Source: Oegoconia quadripuncta (taxonomy: Eukaryota; Arthropoda; Insecta; Lepidoptera; Autostichidae). From it: DNA of 64,000 nucleotides. Positions 2 through 14,040 of this stretch are shown here, piece after piece; the first letter of the stretch is position 1; every line of letters begins with the position of its first letter. The notes beneath the pieces were generated by a model. The model made no database searches and was not told where the DNA came from. It saw only the letters and a program-made list of their open reading frames with translations. The stretch spans positions 14,045,731-14,109,730 of the forward strand of contig OX438758.1 in the NCBI GenBank assembly GCA_949316235.1. Direction: 5' to 3'. A program made the translations under genes and the position numbers.

Positions 2-2623
2 CCTCGTCTCGTTAGAAATCAAGTAACCAGTCATCATGGAAAATTATATTTTTGCGAAACCTGTTTCTTGTTTTTTCCGAAAGAAGTTGAACTCGAGAAC
101 CACAGTTGTGGTGGCGTTGTTACCGTATTACCTCAAAAAGGTGCTGTACTTAAATTTAAAAACTATGAACGAAAACAAAATGTGCCGTTTGTTGTGTATG
201 CGGATTTCGAGACTATGTTACAACCGATTTACGGCTGCGAACCTGATCCGAGTGTTGCTAGTACTTGCGATTTGCAACGTCACATACCTATCGCATTTGC
301 GTACAACATCGTGTGTAACGTTGATGACAAATACAATCGATTTGTGACTTATCGGGGTAAAAATTGTGTTTCGAAATTTATAACTTCACTACATAATGAC
401 GCCAAAAAAATTCAATCAATCTTAAATTCTACTGAGCCTATATTGTTTACTGAGCAAAATTCTAAGGATTTTGACAATGCCACACGATGTCACATATGTA
501 ATCACTTGTTGTGGAACGATAGAGTCAAAGATCACTGTCACATCACGGGGCGTTTTCGTGGTGCAGCTCATATGCATTGCAACTTACAATACAAAGTTCC
601 AAAATGTATTCCTGTATTTTTTCATAACCTTTCGGGATATGATAGTCATTTATTTATTAAAGAATTAGGTGAACTCCCTGGGAACATTAAAATTTTACCA
701 AAAACTAAAGAAAATTATATTTCTTTTTCCAAGTTCTTACCCGTTTCGGATAATAAATATATTCAATTGCGTTTTACTGATTCTTTAAAATTTTTAGGAA
801 CGAGTTTAGATAAATTAGCTAAAACTATGGCGAAATCTGATTTAAAATATCTTCGCAGTCATTTTCCTGATGACTTACAATTTAATTTACTATCTCGAAA
901 AGGTGTTTACCCATACAATTATATGACTGACTGGAAGACTTATTTAGAGTCTAGTTTGCCTCGAAAATCACAGTTTTATAATACATTAACTGGTGAACAC
1001 ATTTCTGATGATGATTTCGAACACGCTCAGCTAGTTTGGTCCAAATTTAACATAAAAGATTTAGGCGAGTATACTGATCTCTATCTTAAATCAGACGTAT
1101 TGTTACTGAGCGACATCTTCGAACATTTTCGCGATACATGTAAACAACACTATAAATTAGATCCATCATTTTACATTACTCTCCCAAGCCTATCCTTCGA
1201 TGCAATGCTTCTAAAAACTGGCGTTGAGTTGGAATTAATAGCGGACTTAGAAATTATCCGAATGATTCAAAGCGGCATAAGGGGGGGAATGTGTATGTGT
1301 CCGCATCGTTATGCTAAAGCAAACCATAAATATATCCCTGATTACGACCCTACACAACAAGATTCATACATAGCATACATCGATTGTAATAATTTATATG
1401 GTTATAGTATGTGTCAAACCCTTCCTCAATCAGACTTTAGATTTTTAGAATATAATGAAATAGAAAATTTAAATGTACTAAACATAGAAGATGAATCCGA
1501 ATACGGCTATATAGTCGAAGTTGATTTGCTTTATCCAGACTACTTACATCAATATCATAATGATTTACCATTCTGTCCAGAGAAATGTATCCCACCCGGA
1601 GGCAAAAATAAAAAGCTTGTGCTCAATTTATACAACAAATATAACTATGTGATTCATTATGTTCACTTAAAAAAGTGTTTAGAGCATGGTTTAATACTGT
1701 GTAAAATTCACAGAGCAATTACTTTCAAACAGAGCTCATATCTTAAGAAATATATTGAATTAAATACTCAACTGCGTCAAAAAGCAAAATCTACATTTGA
1801 ACAAGATTTTTTTAAACTGTTGAATAATTCAGTGTTTGGAAAGACTCTTGAGAATACTGAGCGTAGAGTTAGTGTACACTTGGTAAATCAATGGCATGAC
1901 ACCCTCAACAAAACAAAAAAGAAAACTGGTGCAGATAGTTTAATTGCCAGTCCATATTTTCATAGCGTTTCTGTTTTTACCGATAATTTGGTGGCTGTTC
2001 AAATGAAGCCCGAACAAATTATCTTGGATAAGCCGATCTACATTGGCTTCACGGTTTTAGAGTTATCTAAAACACACATGTATAATTTCCATTATAATGT
2101 TATCAAACCATTTTATGAAGATCGTGTTCAATTGTGCTATACGGATACGGACAGTTTTATTTATTCCATTAACTGCGCCGATTTTTATAATGACATAAAT
2201 AAATATTTTTTAAATTACTTTGATAGCAGTAATTATGGAGACGAAAATATATATGACATTCCTCTTAAAAATAAAAAGGTTCCAGGATTGTTTAAGGATG
2301 AAATGGCAGGACAAATCGTATCAGAATTTGTAGGACTCCGGTCAAAACTGTATTGTCTAAAAACTAAAGATGAAATTGTTAAGAAAGCAAAGGGGGTGAA
2401 GTCTTACGTAGTTCGCGATTTGGAGTTATCGGATTATAAGTCGGTTCTTTACAATAAAGAAATAATACGAAAAAAGAATATTTTATTTCGATCAATAAAA
2501 CACGAGATATTTACAAGAAATGTTAATAAAATCGCTCTTTCTGGCAATGACGACAAAAGATTCATTTCAAATGACAAAATATCCACTAAGGCATGGGGTA
2601 GTTCGTGGATTTTAAAATGTTAA
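2..2623 (+). CDS. polB: Protein-primed family B DNA polymerase, 5'-partial
   Basis: Replicative polymerase of the element, expected to start synthesis from a protein primer. The frame is already open at base 2, so the true start is left of the window; a TTG at 68 is not a start. A Cys/His cluster (about 53-115) lies at the visible N-end. Exonuclease motifs follow: Exo I 'YADFET' near 200, Exo II 'NLSGYD' near 625-650, Exo III 'YTDLYLKSD' near 1070-1100. Polymerase motif A 'DCNNLYG' is near 1382, motif B 'NNSVFGKT' near 1826, motif C 'YTDTDS' at 2138-2155. A CHIC...HCH...CN zinc segment resembling endonuclease VII/HNH folds (about 488-595) sits between Exo I and Exo II. All catalytic acidic residues of the motifs are present. 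It is intact to its TAA stop. Confidence 0.93.
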   Translation, partial: PRLVRNQVTSHHGKLYFCETCFLFFPKEVELENHSCGGVVTVLPQKGAVLKFKNYERKQNVPFVVYADFETMLQPIYGCEPDPSVASTCDLQRHIPIAFAYNIVCNVDDKYNRFVTYRGKNCVSKFITSLHNDAKKIQSILNSTEPILFTEQNSKDFDNATRCHICNHLLWNDRVKDHCHITGRFRGAAHMHCNLQYKVPKCIPVFFHNLSGYDSHLFIKELGELPGNIKILPKTKENYISFSKFLPVSDNKYIQLRFTDSLKFLGTSLDKLAKTMAKSDLKYLRSHFPDDLQFNLLSRKGVYPYNYMTDWKTYLESSLPRKSQFYNTLTGEHISDDDFEHAQLVWSKFNIKDLGEYTDLYLKSDVLLLSDIFEHFRDTCKQHYKLDPSFYITLPSLSFDAMLLKTGVELELIADLEIIRMIQSGIRGGMCMCPHRYAKANHKYIPDYDPTQQDSYIAYIDCNNLYGYSMCQTLPQSDFRFLEYNEIENLNVLNIEDESEYGYIVEVDLLYPDYLHQYHNDLPFCPEKCIPPGGKNKKLVLNLYNKYNYVIHYVHLKKCLEHGLILCKIHRAITFKQSSYLKKYIELNTQLRQKAKSTFEQDFFKLLNNSVFGKTLENTERRVSVHLVNQWHDTLNKTKKKTGADSLIASPYFHSVSVFTDNLVAVQMKPEQIILDKPIYIGFTVLELSKTHMYNFHYNVIKPFYEDRVQLCYTDTDSFIYSINCADFYNDINKYFLNYFDSSNYGDENIYDIPLKNKKVPGLFKDEMAGQIVSEFVGLRSKLYCLKTKDEIVKKAKGVKSYVVRDLELSDYKSVLYNKEIIRKKNILFRSIKHEIFTRNVNKIALSGNDDKRFISNDKISTKAWGSSWILKC

Positions 2624-4194: not shown

Positions 4195-4692
4195 TTAATT
4201 AATATAATCATAAATATGATTGTCAATATACCATTTTTTTATTAATAGAACATTACTTAATGCACATTTTTTTGTATGTTCAATACAATTCAAATTACCA
4301 TCACTTTTACAATAATTTTCACGCAACCTTAAAAAATTTGGACAGCCTTTCTCTCCAATATCTATTATTTCACAATTTCCTGACAATTCCTTGATCCATT
4401 TCATTTTTTCAAAACCTTTTGTTAATATTTTTTTATTGCTTAGGTATGGAATAATTATGCGTTTAAACTCGCGGAAGTCAATAAATCCTTCACTCCAATA
4501 TATTCCATAATTTTTTTCTATCCACCTGACTTGTTTCTTTTCCTCTTTTGATAAGTAATTAAAACAGTAAGGAGGTTTGACCAAAAATATTTGAGTATAT
4601 TCTTGAGTCCCTATGGCTAATTCTTTGACAATAAAATTGTTTTTTAAATCCTTAAATCCTTGGACATCAACAATAACAGTTGTAGCATTCAT
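4195..4692 (-). CDS. Conserved small protein, possible RNase H-like/exonuclease fold
   Basis: A 165-residue protein opening with hydrophobic beta-like 'TVIVDVQGF', then 'NNFIVKELAI', 'IFLVKPPY', 'YWSEGFIDF', 'ILTKGFEKMKWIKEL', a 'IIDIGEKGCPNF' segment and a Cys/His-rich tail (NCIEHTKKCAL). The opening 'DVQGF' and the alternating strand/helix pattern recall DEDD-type nucleases, and I know similar unnamed proteins from arthropod genomes beside Polinton genes. The exonuclease suggestion is inference from pattern, not a match I could compute. It is the last gene of the - cassette and its ATG overlaps the major capsid stop as ATGA (4692-4689), which points to expression coupled with the capsid gene. 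Confidence 0.6.
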   Translation of the reverse strand: MNATTVIVDVQGFKDLKNNFIVKELAIGTQEYTQIFLVKPPYCFNYLSKEEKKQVRWIEKNYGIYWSEGFIDFREFKRIIIPYLSNKKILTKGFEKMKWIKELSGNCEIIDIGEKGCPNFLRLRENYCKSDGNLNCIEHTKKCALSNVLLIKKWYIDNHIYDYIN

Positions 4693-5900
4693 GATATTTT
4701 CTTCACGATGTTGCTCAAAGGTTTATATTCAAATAAACAGTCGTTTAATATTAGGCAATACGCTGATGTTTGATCAGGTATATCTTTATCACTTTCAAAT
4801 TCTACTCTAACGTCGACGGATCCTCCTGACTTTAAGTTCTCTACTTGTCGAGAACAATCAATCACAAATAATGGTGTTTTAATTTTAAAATCTTTGTAGC
4901 TCAACATTGGTTCCGGTCGGCGTCCATAATAAGACTGTTGAAATTTTGCATACTGTTCGTATATTAAAGCATAGTTATTATTTTTAAAATTTAAATTTAG
5001 GTTTTCATATGGAAAATAGGTAGAGTTAAGATATACTTTGACATTTCTCAAATTACAATGATCAAATTGCGTCATATTCCTATTTACATGATTCTTACGA
5101 CTAGTTTGAAATCCTATAATTACGTATCTAGGTTTTTCTATTTGAGACGATGTCTTTATAGACCACGTATGTTTTGAAGTCCTAGGAAGTACTGGATATT
5201 CATAGAGATCCCAGTTTCTAAACATAATATTTAATGCACGGTCTTTTTCCAAATAACGTAGTAAATTAATTCTTTCACGATCAGAGACTTTTACGTGAGG
5301 TACACGCCAAACAATTTTACTGATTACAATATCCTCTACACTTTCATTTGGCTCTAGTTTCACTGCATTGACGTTCGTATTACTTCGCAATAAAATAAGT
5401 TCATGTTTGCAATTTAATAAAATTTTGTTGTAGTCTTCTGCGAATCCTAAAATCTTATTAAGCGGTATGCTTGCTGCGAAATAACCATCCGTGCATGGGG
5501 TTCCATCAATATCCCATCCCCAATGCTTCGACATTTTTGATTCACCTTCATTCATAGACAAGAGGGATTTCATTGTTGTAGTAATACCTACATTTTTAAC
5601 TTTATCAATTTCAACTCCGTTAATTTCATAGCGAATATCTTGAAACAAAAAAAGTATAGGATTGTTTGTTAAATGGAAATCTGTTACCTTTATTTTAGGA
5701 TCACTATTAACAATCTTAATATTTCCCTCTACGTATAATGAACTAGCCGATGGCAATACATATAAATCTTGTTGATTTATTGGTATTCGTATCTCATCGT
5801 TGACGTTAAAACTTGTTACGTAAGGTTTGTAGGTATGGTATTCAAAGCTTTCAATAGAGTTGTCGTATGTTACAGGATCTGTTACGTTCAAAATATTCAT
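4689..5900 (-). CDS. Major capsid protein, double jelly-roll (hexon-like)
   Basis: A 403-residue protein that builds the icosahedral shell. Its N-terminal part, 'FNVNDEIRIPINQQDLYVLP' followed by 'SLYVEGNI', is the pattern seen at the start of Polinton and adintovirus major capsid proteins. 'FLFQDIRYEINGVEID' and 'RVPHVKVSDRERI' are further family-like strands. There is no signal peptide or membrane segment, and the protein is rich in Asn and Tyr with predicted beta structure. It lies beside the minor capsid gene, as expected. The start ATG (5900) overlaps the preceding small gene's stop as ATGA, and the stop overlaps the next gene's ATG in the same way. No break is seen. The assignment rests on family pattern and position. 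Confidence 0.85.
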   Translation of the reverse strand: MNILNVTDPVTYDNSIESFEYHTYKPYVTSFNVNDEIRIPINQQDLYVLPSASSLYVEGNIKIVNSDPKIKVTDFHLTNNPILFLFQDIRYEINGVEIDKVKNVGITTTMKSLLSMNEGESKMSKHWGWDIDGTPCTDGYFAASIPLNKILGFAEDYNKILLNCKHELILLRSNTNVNAVKLEPNESVEDIVISKIVWRVPHVKVSDRERINLLRYLEKDRALNIMFRNWDLYEYPVLPRTSKHTWSIKTSSQIEKPRYVIIGFQTSRKNHVNRNMTQFDHCNLRNVKVYLNSTYFPYENLNLNFKNNNYALIYEQYAKFQQSYYGRRPEPMLSYKDFKIKTPLFVIDCSRQVENLKSGGSVDVRVEFESDKDIPDQTSAYCLILNDCLFEYKPLSNIVKKIS

Positions 5901-6085
5901 TTTAATAGTCCAATAATCTTGAGGAATTGTTGATTTTCTTTTGTTAGTTTGTTCTTGGCGAAATACTTTTTTTTTGTTGATTTAATTTTATGACTAAAAC
6001 AGTTGCACGATGTTCCTCCTTCAATGGTAAGATTAGTTCTAATACTTGATAGTTTTGGTGTCGGATATTTATTAAAATCTAACAT
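5897..6085 (-). CDS. Small basic Cys-containing protein between the two capsid genes
   Basis: A 62-residue protein with a Cys pair (SCNC), a lysine-rich middle and the end 'NQQFLKIIGLLK'. I recall short proteins with a similar 'FL..LGLK' ending in arthropod Polinton loci, but have no function for them. Its coding region overlaps the minor capsid gene's end by 7 bp and the major capsid start by 4 bp (ATGA). This tight packing supports a real gene despite its size. A structural cement or core peptide is one guess. Confidence 0.6.
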   Translation of the reverse strand: MLDFNKYPTPKLSSIRTNLTIEGGTSCNCFSHKIKSTKKKYFAKNKLTKENQQFLKIIGLLK

Positions 6086-6788: not shown

Positions 6789-7157
6789 TTAAATATTCTC
6801 CCAGAAGTTCTTTAGATATTTTAAACATAAATGTCCGCAATTGACGGAATCAAATTTTTGATAGGTGTGATAATTATAAAATATATCTTTATTATTCATA
6901 TAATTAGAAAATTCTACAGGAGGTTTTAAGTCCCCAAAACTATCAAAGTATTCGCAATAATTATTAAATTTTACGTAAGCTACCCAATGAGTTCCCTCAT
7001 TTCTATCACTGTCTAAATTAACTATACCGCACTCAATTTGTTTTGGCTTTTTCGGTAACTTATCTCTCATAAAAACACCTCGAAAGTATGGAATGTTTCG
7101 AGCATGTTGAATAATGTCTAAATTGCTTAGAGCACGTTTGGGTAGCCGTTTATTTAG
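6789..7157 (-). CDS. Adenain-like cysteine protease, no own upstream ATG (probable -1 frameshift product)
   Basis: Maturation protease for capsid proteins. The catalytic set is visible: His in 'GTHWVAY', Asp in 'YFDSFGD', Gln and Cys in 'QKFDSVNCGHLC' (Cys codon 6839-6837). The only ATG in the frame is at 7070 (MRDKLP...), yet the frame stays open upstream and encodes 'LSNLDIIQHARNIPYFRGVF', which looks like the conserved N-terminal part of this family. Starting at 7070 would remove it. The open frame runs without stop from the slippery heptamer at 7163-7157, on the stop of the preceding phospholipase gene. I therefore infer expression as a -1 frameshift extension; proteolytic release would follow. 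Alternatives are a non-ATG start or a lost start codon. Confidence 0.85.
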   Translation of the reverse strand, partial: LNKRLPKRALSNLDIIQHARNIPYFRGVFMRDKLPKKPKQIECGIVNLDSDRNEGTHWVAYVKFNNYCEYFDSFGDLKPPVEFSNYMNNKDIFYNYHTYQKFDSVNCGHLCLKYLKNFWENI

Positions 7158-7882
7158 TTTTTTGAAGTCGACAAAAATAAACCATTGCCTTTTTTGTATG
7201 GCTTCATGTATAACCCCTTGCCTAGTGCAATGGATTCCATCATCTTATTATGTCGATTATTTTCTTCAAAATTTTTCTGGGCTGATTTATAATCACTTAT
7301 AGTTTTCGCGATACCTGCTGCACCACCAGCCAATGATCCCAATGCAGATAATCCTGCAAAAATTGGTATCAACGGCAAAATCCCTCCCGTTTTTGGAACT
7401 GGTACAATACGCGGTAAACGAACTTTTACATTTTTAGGTAGCAGTTTTTTAGCAGCAATGTATGCAAATTTTATAGCTGAAGCATTACTTTTCGGTTTAT
7501 ATTTTTTTAGTTGAGAGCGTATTTTAGAAACAATTGTCTTAAAACCTTTAAATCCTGCTCCAATCTTTAACTTTGTCTTCATTACTTTACTGACCAACCA
7601 AGACGCAAGTTTTTCGCCGGTTCTTGTATTTTTTGCTTTAATTCTTTTTCTTGCCATATTTAGCAGCTCTAAATCTGCTCTATGCCGATTTTGGAGGTCG
7701 GAATTATTTGAATATGCTATGTCGTGTTGCATACAAGCGTTATCCAATTCATTAATACCTTTGTCACCTCGTAATAAACGTTCTCGTAATCTTGTTCCAG
7801 GTCCACAGTAACTATATCCAGGTAAATGTAATTCAAACGGGAGATTGTTTATTGCACTGTTGAGAAGTCCTCCGCCTATCAT
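7154..7882 (-). CDS. Phospholipase A2 / mu-like capsid-entry protein
   Basis: A 242-residue protein with two parts. Residues about 21-60 form a parvovirus-type phospholipase A2: calcium loop 'YCGPG' (25-29), 'NELDNAC' and the catalytic pair His53-Asp54 in 'CMQHDIAY'. In parvoviruses this enzyme opens endosomal membranes during entry; the same role is inferred here. Residues about 75-160 are highly basic. Residues 166-195 are a Gly/Ala-rich hydrophobic run starting GGILPLIP, like the GGxLPxxxP motif of adenovirus core protein mu (pX). Adintoviruses carry such PLA2 proteins. Its stop codon lies on a slippery heptamer leading into the protease. It is intact with catalytic residues kept. Confidence 0.87.
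   Translation of the reverse strand: MIGGGLLNSAINNLPFELHLPGYSYCGPGTRLRERLLRGDKGINELDNACMQHDIAYSNNSDLQNRHRADLELLNMARKRIKAKNTRTGEKLASWLVSKVMKTKLKIGAGFKGFKTIVSKIRSQLKKYKPKSNASAIKFAYIAAKKLLPKNVKVRLPRIVPVPKTGGILPLIPIFAGLSALGSLAGGAAGIAKTISDYKSAQKNFEENNRHNKMMESIALGKGLYMKPYKKGNGLFLSTSKN
7157..7163 (-). promoter_or_regulatory. Candidate -1 ribosomal frameshift site, A AAA AAC
   Basis: Read on the - strand, the phospholipase frame ends TCA AAA AAC TAA. The heptamer A_AAA_AAC is in the correct phase (X XXY YYZ) and is followed at once by the stop. Slipping back one base leads into the protease frame, which is open from here to 6789. A 7-bp stem with a 10-nt loop (arms 7102-7096 and 7085-7079) begins 55 nt downstream, farther than the usual stimulatory distance. 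Confidence 0.65.
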
Positions 7883-7945: not shown

Positions 7946-8875
7946 TTACACAACTGCCTTTTCGTCAATCCAACTATTTTCGTTTTCATTAAAACCTAAC
8001 CATTTAACAAACAGCTTGTTACCTTTTCTTTTTAAAACTTTTTCAACTAAATAAACATCTGAATGTTTGGTTTTTTGAAGTTCTTGTTCATAAAATGATC
8101 CTGATATAATTTGATCTCTTTGATCTTTAATTTGATAAGTGGTTGGATTCGTTTTATTTACTTTTGTAATTTTAAATATTTCAGCAGACCAATTGGGAGT
8201 ATACCCTTTTTCGAATTCGCTCTTGTGTTTACTAATCCGAACATAATCACTTTCATTAAACTTTTGATTTCTTGTTGTATGTTTTTTATACGATTTTGTA
8301 ATATTATTTAAAATAATTAACTCGTTGTTAGAACAAACTTCATTTGGTTTACATTTTATGATCCGATGTAAAGTATCGTTATAAGAATCAACAATAGTTG
8401 TCAAAGGTTTACCAACCCATTTATAGTTACCTGTAAGACTAAAATATTTATAAAGTTTGGTTTTCAAAGTTCTGATCACTCTTTCAACGATTGATGCTTT
8501 TTTTATAGAATACGTCGAGTAGTGATTTATTTTATAGGAAGACATTAATCTTCTAAAATCATCATTGTAAAATTCTTTCCCTAAATCTGTTTGCAAGTTA
8601 CGAGGACTTCGAGCAGTTTTGGCAAGGATACCTTGAAACGATTTAGTTATTTCAGATTTGTTTTTTCTTTTTACTGGAACAGTCCAAACAAATTTTGAAA
8701 ACGTATCTATAATTACCAAAATGTAATTAAAACCCTTATTGACTTTGGTAACACCTTGCATGTCTATTAAGTCAGCTTGCCATAAATCATCTATGCCTTT
8801 TAAAGTTACAGAACGACGAATGAAATTTTTTCTTGCTGCTCTATGAAGTTCATTAACAACCTGTAACTTACTCAT
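7946..8875 (-). CDS. Retrovirus-type (DDE) integrase with C-terminal chromodomain
   Basis: A 309-residue enzyme for inserting the element's DNA ends into the host chromosome. The core has Asp35 in 'LWQADLIDM', Asp97 in 'NLQTDLGKEF' and Glu131 in 'ASIVERVIRTLK', a D-x61-D-x33-E arrangement. The tail (about 270-309) 'VYLVEKVLKRKGNKLFVKWLGF...SWIDE' is a chromodomain, which in retroelement integrases binds histone marks and steers insertion. The usual N-terminal His/Cys zinc finger is short or absent: only 30 residues precede the core. The start ATG overlaps the stop of the fibre-like gene as ATGA (8875-8872). The frame is intact and all three catalytic residues are kept, so activity is possible. 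Confidence 0.92.
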   Translation of the reverse strand: MSKLQVVNELHRAARKNFIRRSVTLKGIDDLWQADLIDMQGVTKVNKGFNYILVIIDTFSKFVWTVPVKRKNKSEITKSFQGILAKTARSPRNLQTDLGKEFYNDDFRRLMSSYKINHYSTYSIKKASIVERVIRTLKTKLYKYFSLTGNYKWVGKPLTTIVDSYNDTLHRIIKCKPNEVCSNNELIILNNITKSYKKHTTRNQKFNESDYVRISKHKSEFEKGYTPNWSAEIFKITKVNKTNPTTYQIKDQRDQIISGSFYEQELQKTKHSDVYLVEKVLKRKGNKLFVKWLGFNENENSWIDEKAVV

Positions 8876-9351
8876 TGCTTGTTAACAAGTTCAAAATCAA
8901 CTTCAGACTTAGTGTAATAGTTTTGTAATTGTTTCTCAACTGTTGACAATATGTCAGTTTTTAAAATATTCAGTTTAGTAGTGATATCTTCTTTGCTATA
9001 AAATTTGTCAATCACGACATCAACATACTTTTTATTCACCGCTTCATCAGCAACTGTGGGGTATTTAAGTCCTTTTAATCTTGATAAATTTAACTCAAAC
9101 TCCCCTTTCTTCGTTTTAAATAGTAGCTTCTTAAGATCTATTAGTTCCTCTTTTGTACTTAACAATTTATCAACGTAATCTTTATTTACAGCATCATCTG
9201 CAGATGATGGAGACTTTACTCCTCTCAATCTCACAAAATGCAAATCAAAATCTCCGTTTTCTGATTTAAATAATACGACCTTAGGATCAAAATATGATTC
9301 GGATCTCCGTAAACGTTTATGCACGTGGTGTCCAAATTTATCAATATTCAT
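8872..9351 (-). CDS. Fibre-like protein with phage tail-fibre type repeats
   Basis: A 159-residue protein with an internal 35-residue duplication spaced by 50 residues (27-61 and 77-111). Each copy ends in the pattern 'P..ADDAVNKDYVD' / 'P..ADEAVNKKYVD'. A further 'YYTKSEVD' is at 145-152. Both patterns are typical of trimeric phage tail fibres and collar proteins ('tdAvnKxYVD', 'YYTKxEVD'). I infer a trimeric attachment fibre or spike on the capsid, with heptad-like 'LLSTKEELIDLKKLL' between the repeats. It sits directly before the integrase with an ATGA overlap. Other possibilities are a scaffold or coiled-coil adaptor. The resemblance is by eye and no search was possible. Confidence 0.65.
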   Translation of the reverse strand: MNIDKFGHHVHKRLRRSESYFDPKVVLFKSENGDFDLHFVRLRGVKSPSSADDAVNKDYVDKLLSTKEELIDLKKLLFKTKKGEFELNLSRLKGLKYPTVADEAVNKKYVDVVIDKFYSKEDITTKLNILKTDILSTVEKQLQNYYTKSEVDFELVNKQ

Positions 9352-10477: not shown

Positions 10478-11164
10478 TTAATCTAATATTACAAATGTGT
10501 CGAACTTCATTCTATAGCATCCTTTGTTTTTTTCACAATCTTTGTCTATGACTAAATAACTGTAACGCATATTCCATATATTTGCACACATGTCTCGAAA
10601 CTGCTTCCAACTCATATCTGTATTAACATGTTCATCATAAACATGGCGTAAGTTGATATCATCCTGCTTAAAAAGAATGATAAGGTTTGCATTATCACGT
10701 ATTAATTGTTTGGGAATTTTACTATATGTCTGATTTAAATAAAAACAATCGATATTCTTATGTCTACCCATTGCAAAGTAGTTTCGAATATTATTCTGAT
10801 TTTCACCAGCAACATCATCAAAAATCATCACCGAATCAGGAGCTGCATTTTCAGGATTAAGGACTTCCTCGTTTTCCCGATATTTTGTAAAAGATACGCT
10901 TGGGACTTTTTGAAACACTTTTTCTAAAAAAATGTACTTCGGTTGAAACAAAGTTTTAGAGTATAGGTATACATGTCGATAACGTAATCCATTTTCATGT
11001 AAAAGCAGACCAATCATTAAGTTTGTTTTGCCACAGTTAGAAGGACCAGAAATAATACACCGTATCGTATCCGGTAAGAGGCTTCCATGTCGAGGATTCT
11101 TCTTAACGGTATCAGAATAAATTTTCTCTACATTCAGGGATCTGGACTGTTTAATAAATTTCAT
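10478..11164 (-). CDS. FtsK/HerA-type genome-packaging ATPase
   Basis: A 228-residue motor expected to pump the element's DNA into the capsid. Walker A 'GPSNCGKT' is at residues 40-47 and Walker B 'VMIFDD' at 112-117. A sensor-like 'YFAMGRHKNIDCFYLNQTY' follows, typical of A32-like packaging ATPases of Polintons, adintoviruses and large DNA viruses. The length is normal for the Polinton group. It is the first gene of the - strand cassette, so the cassette promoter should lie just right of 11164. Intact. Confidence 0.9.
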   Translation of the reverse strand: MKFIKQSRSLNVEKIYSDTVKKNPRHGSLLPDTIRCIISGPSNCGKTNLMIGLLLHENGLRYRHVYLYSKTLFQPKYIFLEKVFQKVPSVSFTKYRENEEVLNPENAAPDSVMIFDDVAGENQNNIRNYFAMGRHKNIDCFYLNQTYSKIPKQLIRDNANLIILFKQDDINLRHVYDEHVNTDMSWKQFRDMCANIWNMRYSYLVIDKDCEKNKGCYRMKFDTFVILD

Positions 11165-11385
11165 ATCTATTTACTGATCATAACTTATTTGCTGAATGGA
11201 GAAATCACATCCCGCAATTAGTTTATATAGTTTGAACGACAGCGTTGAAACAAACCAGTCAGCTGATTTGAATATAGAAAACTACAGGCGCTCTGTAATT
11301 AAATTAAGTCTATTCATTCGTGGTTAACACTACGTTGGATTACGTATATTTGAAATATCTCTAATCACAAATAAATGGTGGCATA
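11165..11385. promoter_or_regulatory. Upstream region of the - strand cassette
   Basis: Noncoding and AT-rich. By position it should contain the promoter of the capsid/packaging cassette and perhaps the inner part of the right terminal repeat. No specific motif can be supported. Confidence 0.3.
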
Positions 11386-13287: not shown

Positions 13288-14040
13288 CGTGAGGCAGGGT
13301 GCTTAGGGAAAAAACATACTAAAAATCCTAACATCTTTTTTGCTAATATCTCAAAAATTCTGCGATATAGCGAAAAATGTTTTAAAATGGAATGAAAGCT
13401 TATAAAATTCTCTATAACTTTGATTCTATACAGGTTTTCCATATTCCCATCCGTTTTCGACCACGTTTCCGTTTTGTACGCGCTCTGGAAAAGTGCAATC
13501 TATAATATAAAGAGTCTGGTGCTCACTGACTGACTGATTCATCAACGCACAGCCTAAACCACTGAAGCTAGAAACATGAAATTTGAACAGTAGGTTTCTA
13601 GTGTGACGGGAGCACCCATTAAGAAAGGATTTCTGTAAATTCAACCCTTATTGGGGTGAAATGGGGGGTGAAAATTTGTATGAAACTTTTTATTCGTCTT
13701 ATCGATTTGCTTGAAACTTGGTACAAATAGTCTACAATATAAATAATGAATTAAGTATTTCAGGATTTTTCAAAACTCAAAACTTAAGGTGGTGAAAATT
13801 GGTGGCAAAGTGTGTATGGGCATCATATAGCCTGAATAAGTTTTATTTCTACATTTCTGGAGCGTGTAGTTCAAAAACGGTTGGGAATATCGAAAAAGTA
13901 TATAGAATCAAAGTTATAGGTAATTTTATAGTCTTTCATTTCATCTTAGAACATTTCTTGCTACAATGCACCGTTTTTGGGATATTAGTGAAAAACCTAA
14001 AATTGAGATCATCTCCCTCCGCCTCGTATCCTAGACGTCA
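13288..14040. mobile_element. Old fold-back (inverted-repeat) element
   Basis: The stretch 13338-13480 matches the reverse complement of 13840-13990 with many scattered differences: shared blocks include 'gctaatatc', 'aatgaaag' and 'aactttgattctata'. The arms may extend outward to 'gaggc(a/g)gg'. Between them, 13488-13700 looks like Helitron- or MITE-type sequence common in moths. Open frames here are chance. Confidence 0.55.

Follow-up and report, generated by a model that had tools for sequence, protein, structure and literature searches.

A slippery heptamer between phospholipase A2 and adenain-like protease genes in Polinton-type elements of a moth: a candidate for programmed -1 frameshifting

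Described frameshift systems and related elements

The closest described systems are the retroviral gag-pro junctions (MMTV, IAP, BLV, HTLV), which share with the locus considered here the heptamer AAAAAAC (PMC3835772, in the sections available) and, as we propose, a minor -1 product in which a particle protein is extended by a protease. They differ from it in the partner, which here is a phospholipase A2 (PLA2) protein of a DNA element and not Gag, in the protease, which here has the adenain cysteine-protease fold while the retroviral enzyme is an aspartic protease, and in the proposed stimulator, a long-range helix here rather than a compact hairpin or pseudoknot. By analogy, the element appears to work like gag-pro but to be no member of the gag-pro system.

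Within the same broad group of elements, a 2024 preprint put forward hypothetical -1 shifts in adintoviruses, giving alternative C-termini to Penton and a Hexon-Adenain fusion named 'Hexain' (PMC11071296). These proposals resemble ours in invoking a -1 slippery site and in that one product ends in Adenain, but their partner is Hexon or Penton instead of PLA2; they are called hypothetical, and the covered parts of that preprint contain no conservation analysis. The original prediction for this locus knew of no such report for adenain, a statement that has to be narrowed in view of Hexain. For the PLA2-protease shift, no description was found in the titles and abstracts listed by full-text searches on frameshifting in Polintons, Mavericks, adintoviruses and adenain.

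Sf Maverick 1 and 2 of Spodoptera frugiperda carry the same kinds of genes, namely CAP with a PLA2 domain and PRO with an adenain-like domain (PMC5803895), and a CAP protein (P0196, identified by name) ends in Pro-Lys-Asn. However, CAP and PRO are treated as separate ORFs and, in the available portion of that paper, no frameshift is mentioned for either; the two uses of the word 'frameshift' there both concern errantiviruses. The word is also absent from the available text of PMC4028283. Distant pairing in the mRNA that acts on a -1 site is described for the long-distance stimulators of dianthoviruses and umbraviruses (PMC5009743, as far as available), although there the shift region is joined to the far 3' end of the RNA, whereas S1, the helix proposed here, has its 5' arm 7-10 nt downstream of the site in nine families and covers roughly 150-170 nt. 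The same partial source counts A_AAA_AAC among the most shift-prone heptamers on mammalian ribosomes (PMC5009743). Judged from sequence comparison, the locus presents a conserved -1 signal of known mechanism, the location and the partner protein being new.

Polinton virions have not been observed, according to the covered part of PMC8097293. A particle-building virus would need the amount of protease relative to a capsid-associated protein to be fixed by translation, as it may be here in many families. The finding also corrects annotation, in which the protease usually figures as a separate ORF whose start is wrong or absent.

The junction and the element around it

The stretch of DNA analysed, referred to as the window, comprises 64,000 nucleotides of the Oegoconia quadripuncta genome. 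The parts of the junction are as follows:

7154..7882, minus strand: PLA2 protein, zero frame, 242 amino acids (PF08398, E 1.4e-13), tail TCA AAA AAC TAA
7157..7163, minus strand: slippery heptamer A_AAA_AAC, from sequence reading, common to 10 of 11 sampled families
7154..7156, minus strand: zero-frame stop TAA abutting the heptamer, from sequence reading
6789..7160, minus strand: adenain-like protease in the -1 frame, beginning at the second of the Lys codons in the slip site and running to its stop, from homologues and a fold match to adenain
7068..7070, minus strand: first ATG of the protease frame, residue 31 when that Lys codon counts as residue 1

The PLA2 frame ends in TCA AAA AAC TAA at 7165-7154 of the minus strand, and the zero-frame codons over the heptamer are TCA AAA AAC; the canonical heptamer that the original prediction placed in phase with this frame and touching its stop is present at 7163-7157. 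The protease frame lies at -1 relative to PLA2 and is open from stop to stop over 6789-7244 (minus strand), with no ATG upstream of 7070, again as originally described. The codon-position pattern is.19/.12/.47 in the PLA2 frame upstream of the site and.22/.15/.52 in the protease frame downstream of it, and coding selection switches frame at the slip site.

Pfam recovers PF00770 on the protease with an E of 0.056, under its cut-off. The predicted protease fold matches adenain, and His58, Gln101 and Cys108 are invariant in a 24-row alignment; the catalytic residues of adenain (peptidase C5) are His and Cys, with a Gln in the oxyanion hole, and by structure prediction the protease has the fold of that enzyme. 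Its N-terminal segment is conserved as protein in the -1 frame across families, and if translation began at 7070 the predicted fold would lack its first helix and strand, which bears out the earlier suggestion that an internal start would sacrifice a conserved segment.

On the evidence of their domains, the capsid protein, integrase and ATPase near the PLA2 gene are those of a Polinton/Maverick; they are listed here with a further frame at the left edge of the window:

4689..5981, minus strand: double jelly-roll major capsid protein (PF21738, E 2.7e-114)
7946..8881, minus strand: retrovirus-like (rve) integrase (PF00665, E 8.2e-12)
10478..11170, minus strand: A32-like packaging ATPase (PF04665, E 2.5e-8)
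2-2623, plus strand: long frame of 873 codons, truncated by the window edge (Endonuclease_7, E 0.0014, below cut-off)

The element extends past the left edge of the window. For the truncated frame, the Endonuclease_7 match is the sole Pfam hit and no protein-primed DNA polymerase B is named; by position and motif the frame resembles a polymerase gene. An endonuclease VII domain is also listed for POLB of Sf Maverick in the available part of PMC5803895. To the right of the element's genes lies an inverted repeat (13336-13460 and 13871-13995) of 125 nt, 81% complementary, with the arms 410 nt apart.

Conservation of the junction and other possible origins of the protease

The genome (622.6 Mb) was searched with the protease, and 150 of the 316 candidate places were scored. 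Junctions were read at 30 loci of the window's own family (L009-L038, with L031 the window copy) and at 34 further loci (L039-L072) picked so as to cover the families. The junction AAAAAACTAA and an intact PLA2 frame are present in all 30 sampled own-family copies, the window copy included, and 25 of them, that copy among them, are identical to the window over 1094 nt (6789-7882). Such identity indicates that the family spread recently, in what these sequences point to as a very recent burst of copying, and its expression may still be detectable. A protease start lost by mutation in a decaying copy, beside a heptamer present by chance, would be in keeping with the decay of 96% of vertebrate Maverick loci (PMC8097293, in the part available). 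The copies just described and the same junction in ten families contradict this reading, which has next to no probability.

An in-phase heptamer directly 5' of the stop was read at 20 of the 34 further loci, the stop being TAA, but TGA in family J. These and the 30 own-family copies make up ten families, A-J, with protease identities of 49-100%. Where PLA2 adjoins the protease, 10 of 11 sampled families have the canonical in-phase heptamer touching the stop, and the alignment of relatives supports the -1 frameshifting that had been proposed from the window's sequence. The exception is family K (L062-L064, 45%), in which the C-terminal half of PLA2 and the protease stand at -1 to each other at a run of 7 A, with no canonical heptamer; in this modified form of the arrangement, the PLA2 domain and the PLA2 C-terminal half lie in different ORFs. 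Families M and N (L065-L072, 35-37%) have no PLA2 within the ~1 kb fetched upstream, and an ATG precedes the N-terminal segment at 7 of their 8 loci. Two loci (L060, L061) are protease fragments without PLA2. At L054, a family G copy, PLA2 and protease form one open frame of 381 codons, so that a constitutive PLA2-protease fusion occurs in nature.

The signature extends to PLA2 homologues, of which 2393 were found at E<=1e-3. Among the best 120 of these the tail is exactly Lys-Asn in 115, with 1-2 extra residues in the other five. A second search, from family I, gave 1461 matches, and 87 of its best 120 were new; 37 of these more distant tails end in Lys-Asn, 38 have Lys-Asn 1-5 residues from the end and 12 are without it. 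The residue before Lys-Asn allows a codon ending in A in 195 of 195 tails (none without), whereas tail composition predicts 25-27% of residues lacking such a codon, a comparison among related sequences whose nominal p-values are not independent. Residues just upstream vary, while Lys-Asn and the preceding A-ending codon are fixed. Lys-Asn tails occur in Spodoptera frugiperda (P0196) and in Molorchus minor, Aromia moschata and Aquatica leii (P0282, P0289, P0316, P0302); the latter three species are beetles, and the beetle-named proteins imply that the tail is not confined to moths. A motif G-x-G-[LIVA]-[FYCLI] lies within the last 24 residues of 119 of the best 120 PLA2 proteins. At the other end, 99 of the best 120 begin with M-x-G-x-G (window 7882-7868), a start that presumably resembles the adenain cleavage consensus.

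These tails bear on whether the protease could be started independently, at an ATG just 5' of the heptamer, at a non-AUG codon or by termination-reinitiation near the PLA2 stop, with the Lys-Asn tail reflecting protein constraint in two frames. In families B and E an ATG does lie two codons 5' of the heptamer, a departure from the consistently missing ATG looked for in relatives, and Cys or Trp, which a -1-frame ATG would require, occurs in the last 14 residues of 26 of the best 120 PLA2 tails. In the other 8 of the ten families A-J, however, no ATG stands ahead of the conserved N-terminus, and in family H a stop right before the heptamer closes the -1 frame. Nor would an independent start account for the fixed Lys-Asn and A-ending codon amid varying upstream residues, and we consider it improbable. 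Protease homologues (2205 at E<=1e-3) fall on both sides: in the best 120, 42 are called only from an internal Met and 78 from upstream starts at scattered positions, and in 33 PLA2/protease pairs, matched by equal length of the longest contig, an internal Met alone is called in 21. Gene callers may err and accept GTG or TTG, so called starts are supporting evidence only. Outside the group an independent start does exist, as seen in one relative found in GTDB genomes (L193, 47% identity), which has its own ATG, no PLA2 directly upstream and other codons at the S1 arms. The contig with this Polinton-type protease gene is assigned to the MAG of a Balneolales bacterium but is probably eukaryotic or eukaryotic-virus sequence binned with the bacterium. 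IMG/VR, searched with the protease, the protease alignment and the PLA2 alignment, yielded no relative; the heptamer + TACCCA pattern matches at least 120 stretches there, and none of the 120 listed encodes PLA2 or protease.

The same fusion protein could arise if the polymerase stuttered on the A run and some mRNAs gained one A, joining the frames. Families J, H and I, with runs of 7, 8 and 10-13 A, are suited to this, but the run is only 6 A in families A-G, which is short for polymerase slippage, and stutter requires neither the exact phase, nor the following C, nor a downstream RNA structure; we regard it as very improbable. The three family I loci (L056-L058) have 13, 13 and 10 bases of A before the C, so that run length changes by steps of three and the phase stays constant. 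Splicing of an upstream exon to the protease frame is a further conceivable origin. An AG between the heptamer and the conserved Leu-Pro codons is present in 7 of the ten families but absent in A, F and J, which means that no splice acceptor at that place can serve all families, and splicing does not account for the heptamer; its probability is minimal.

Downstream RNA structure and the proposed mechanism

As far as comparative sequence analysis can tell, the protease very probably arises by programmed -1 ribosomal frameshifting, attached to the C-terminus of the PLA2 protein. The structures considered downstream of the site are:

7138..7147, minus strand: 5' arm of proposed long-range helix S1, 9 nt 3' of the heptamer (cross-family pairing scan, RNAalifold)
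6978..6987, minus strand: 3' arm of proposed S1, inside the codons of the His-Trp-Val-Ala motif (cross-family pairing scan, RNAalifold)
7079..7102, minus strand: local 7-bp hairpin, 7102-7096 with 7085-7079, in the S1 loop (predicted; z -0.42)

The 7-bp stem that had been noted 55 nt downstream exists but is not exceptional. The 128 nt after the slip site (7157-7030) fold no better than shuffles (z -0.42), nor does 7152-7085 (z -0.50); as a conserved pseudoknot partner 3' of S1, only two 5-bp candidates came up, neither of them convincing. The likelier stimulator is S1, whose 3' arm lies ~150 nt further on.

When families A-J were scanned for helices kept across families, the three top-scoring 6-bp windows proved to be one helix, S1, other windows reaching 9 families with lower scores, and S1 is also the main stem of RNAalifold. 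It pairs the Leu-Pro codons after the slip site with the Trp-Val-Ala codons beside the catalytic His. The pairing is conserved, with eight pairs kept in 9-10 of the ten families, the next pair in 8 and the outermost in 7. Leu CTA, Pro CCC and Val GTA are each used in 9 of 10 families, while the same residues elsewhere have mostly mixed codons, a few other columns being fixed as well (e.g. Arg AGA, Leu TTA). In nine families S1 begins at the distance from the site given above; it is kept only partly in family I, and its arms are absent from family K.

In the window, S1 (7147-7138 with 6987-6978) has a z of -2.0, with 9 of 200 shuffles as good. Its five core pairs have mean probabilities of 0.83-1.00 in all ten families against 0.21-0.63 after synonymous shuffling, the observed probability being reached by 0-38 of 100 synonymous shuffles. 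For the enclosed region the mean z against synonymous shuffles is -2.54 over the ten families, with the window's own region at -0.95; per 100 shuffles, 0 or 1 are as good in D, F, G, H and J, 6 in E, 15-20 in A, B and C, and 78 in I. Control windows (two in PLA2, one late in the protease) give mean z values of -0.12, -0.27 and -0.41, family D being structured in two of them. Sliding the S1 partner along lowers pairing from 94% to 21-54%. Permuting whole codon columns produced a comparable 7-bp helix in 70 of 2000 cases, and in 266 of 2000 it yielded at least three 6-bp windows. Covariation at S1 is no greater than in shuffled columns (58 of 500 for cells paired, 55 of 500 with 12 pairs), and the one two-sided change is G-C to U-A in family F. 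Taken together, S1 is likely to be real and to act on translation.

We infer that the slip itself, its rate, the stimulation by S1 and the purpose of the fusion are probably as follows. Most ribosomes would translate PLA2 and terminate at the TAA, while a minority, with Lys and Asn tRNAs on A_AAA_AAC, would slip one base back and continue in the -1 frame to give PLA2-protease. S1, which closes a structured loop of ~150 nt, probably makes the ribosome pause and thereby slip more often. Through the fusion, the protease would be kept scarce relative to PLA2 and would enter the particle attached to its partner, in the manner of Gag-Pro; it is conjecture that the PLA2 tail is removed by cleavage or acts in cis as an activator of the protease. 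A PLA2 domain similar to this one is present in parvovirus VP1 (PMC5803895, available part), so the PLA2 protein is likely to be membrane-active, as is adenovirus pVI, and the C-terminal peptide of pVI activates adenain (PMC8537868, available part). It is possible, though rather doubtful, that insect PLA2 Polintons evolved a Gag-Pro-like strategy independently of retroviruses, in which the slip site and a long-range RNA domain inside the protease gene set the dose of PLA2-protease, and the PLA2 tail both brings the protease into the particle and serves as its activator in cis, replacing the separate pVI peptide of adenoviruses.

In family J (L059), the codons of the HWVA motif are tandemly duplicated, and the 3' arm of S1 along with them.
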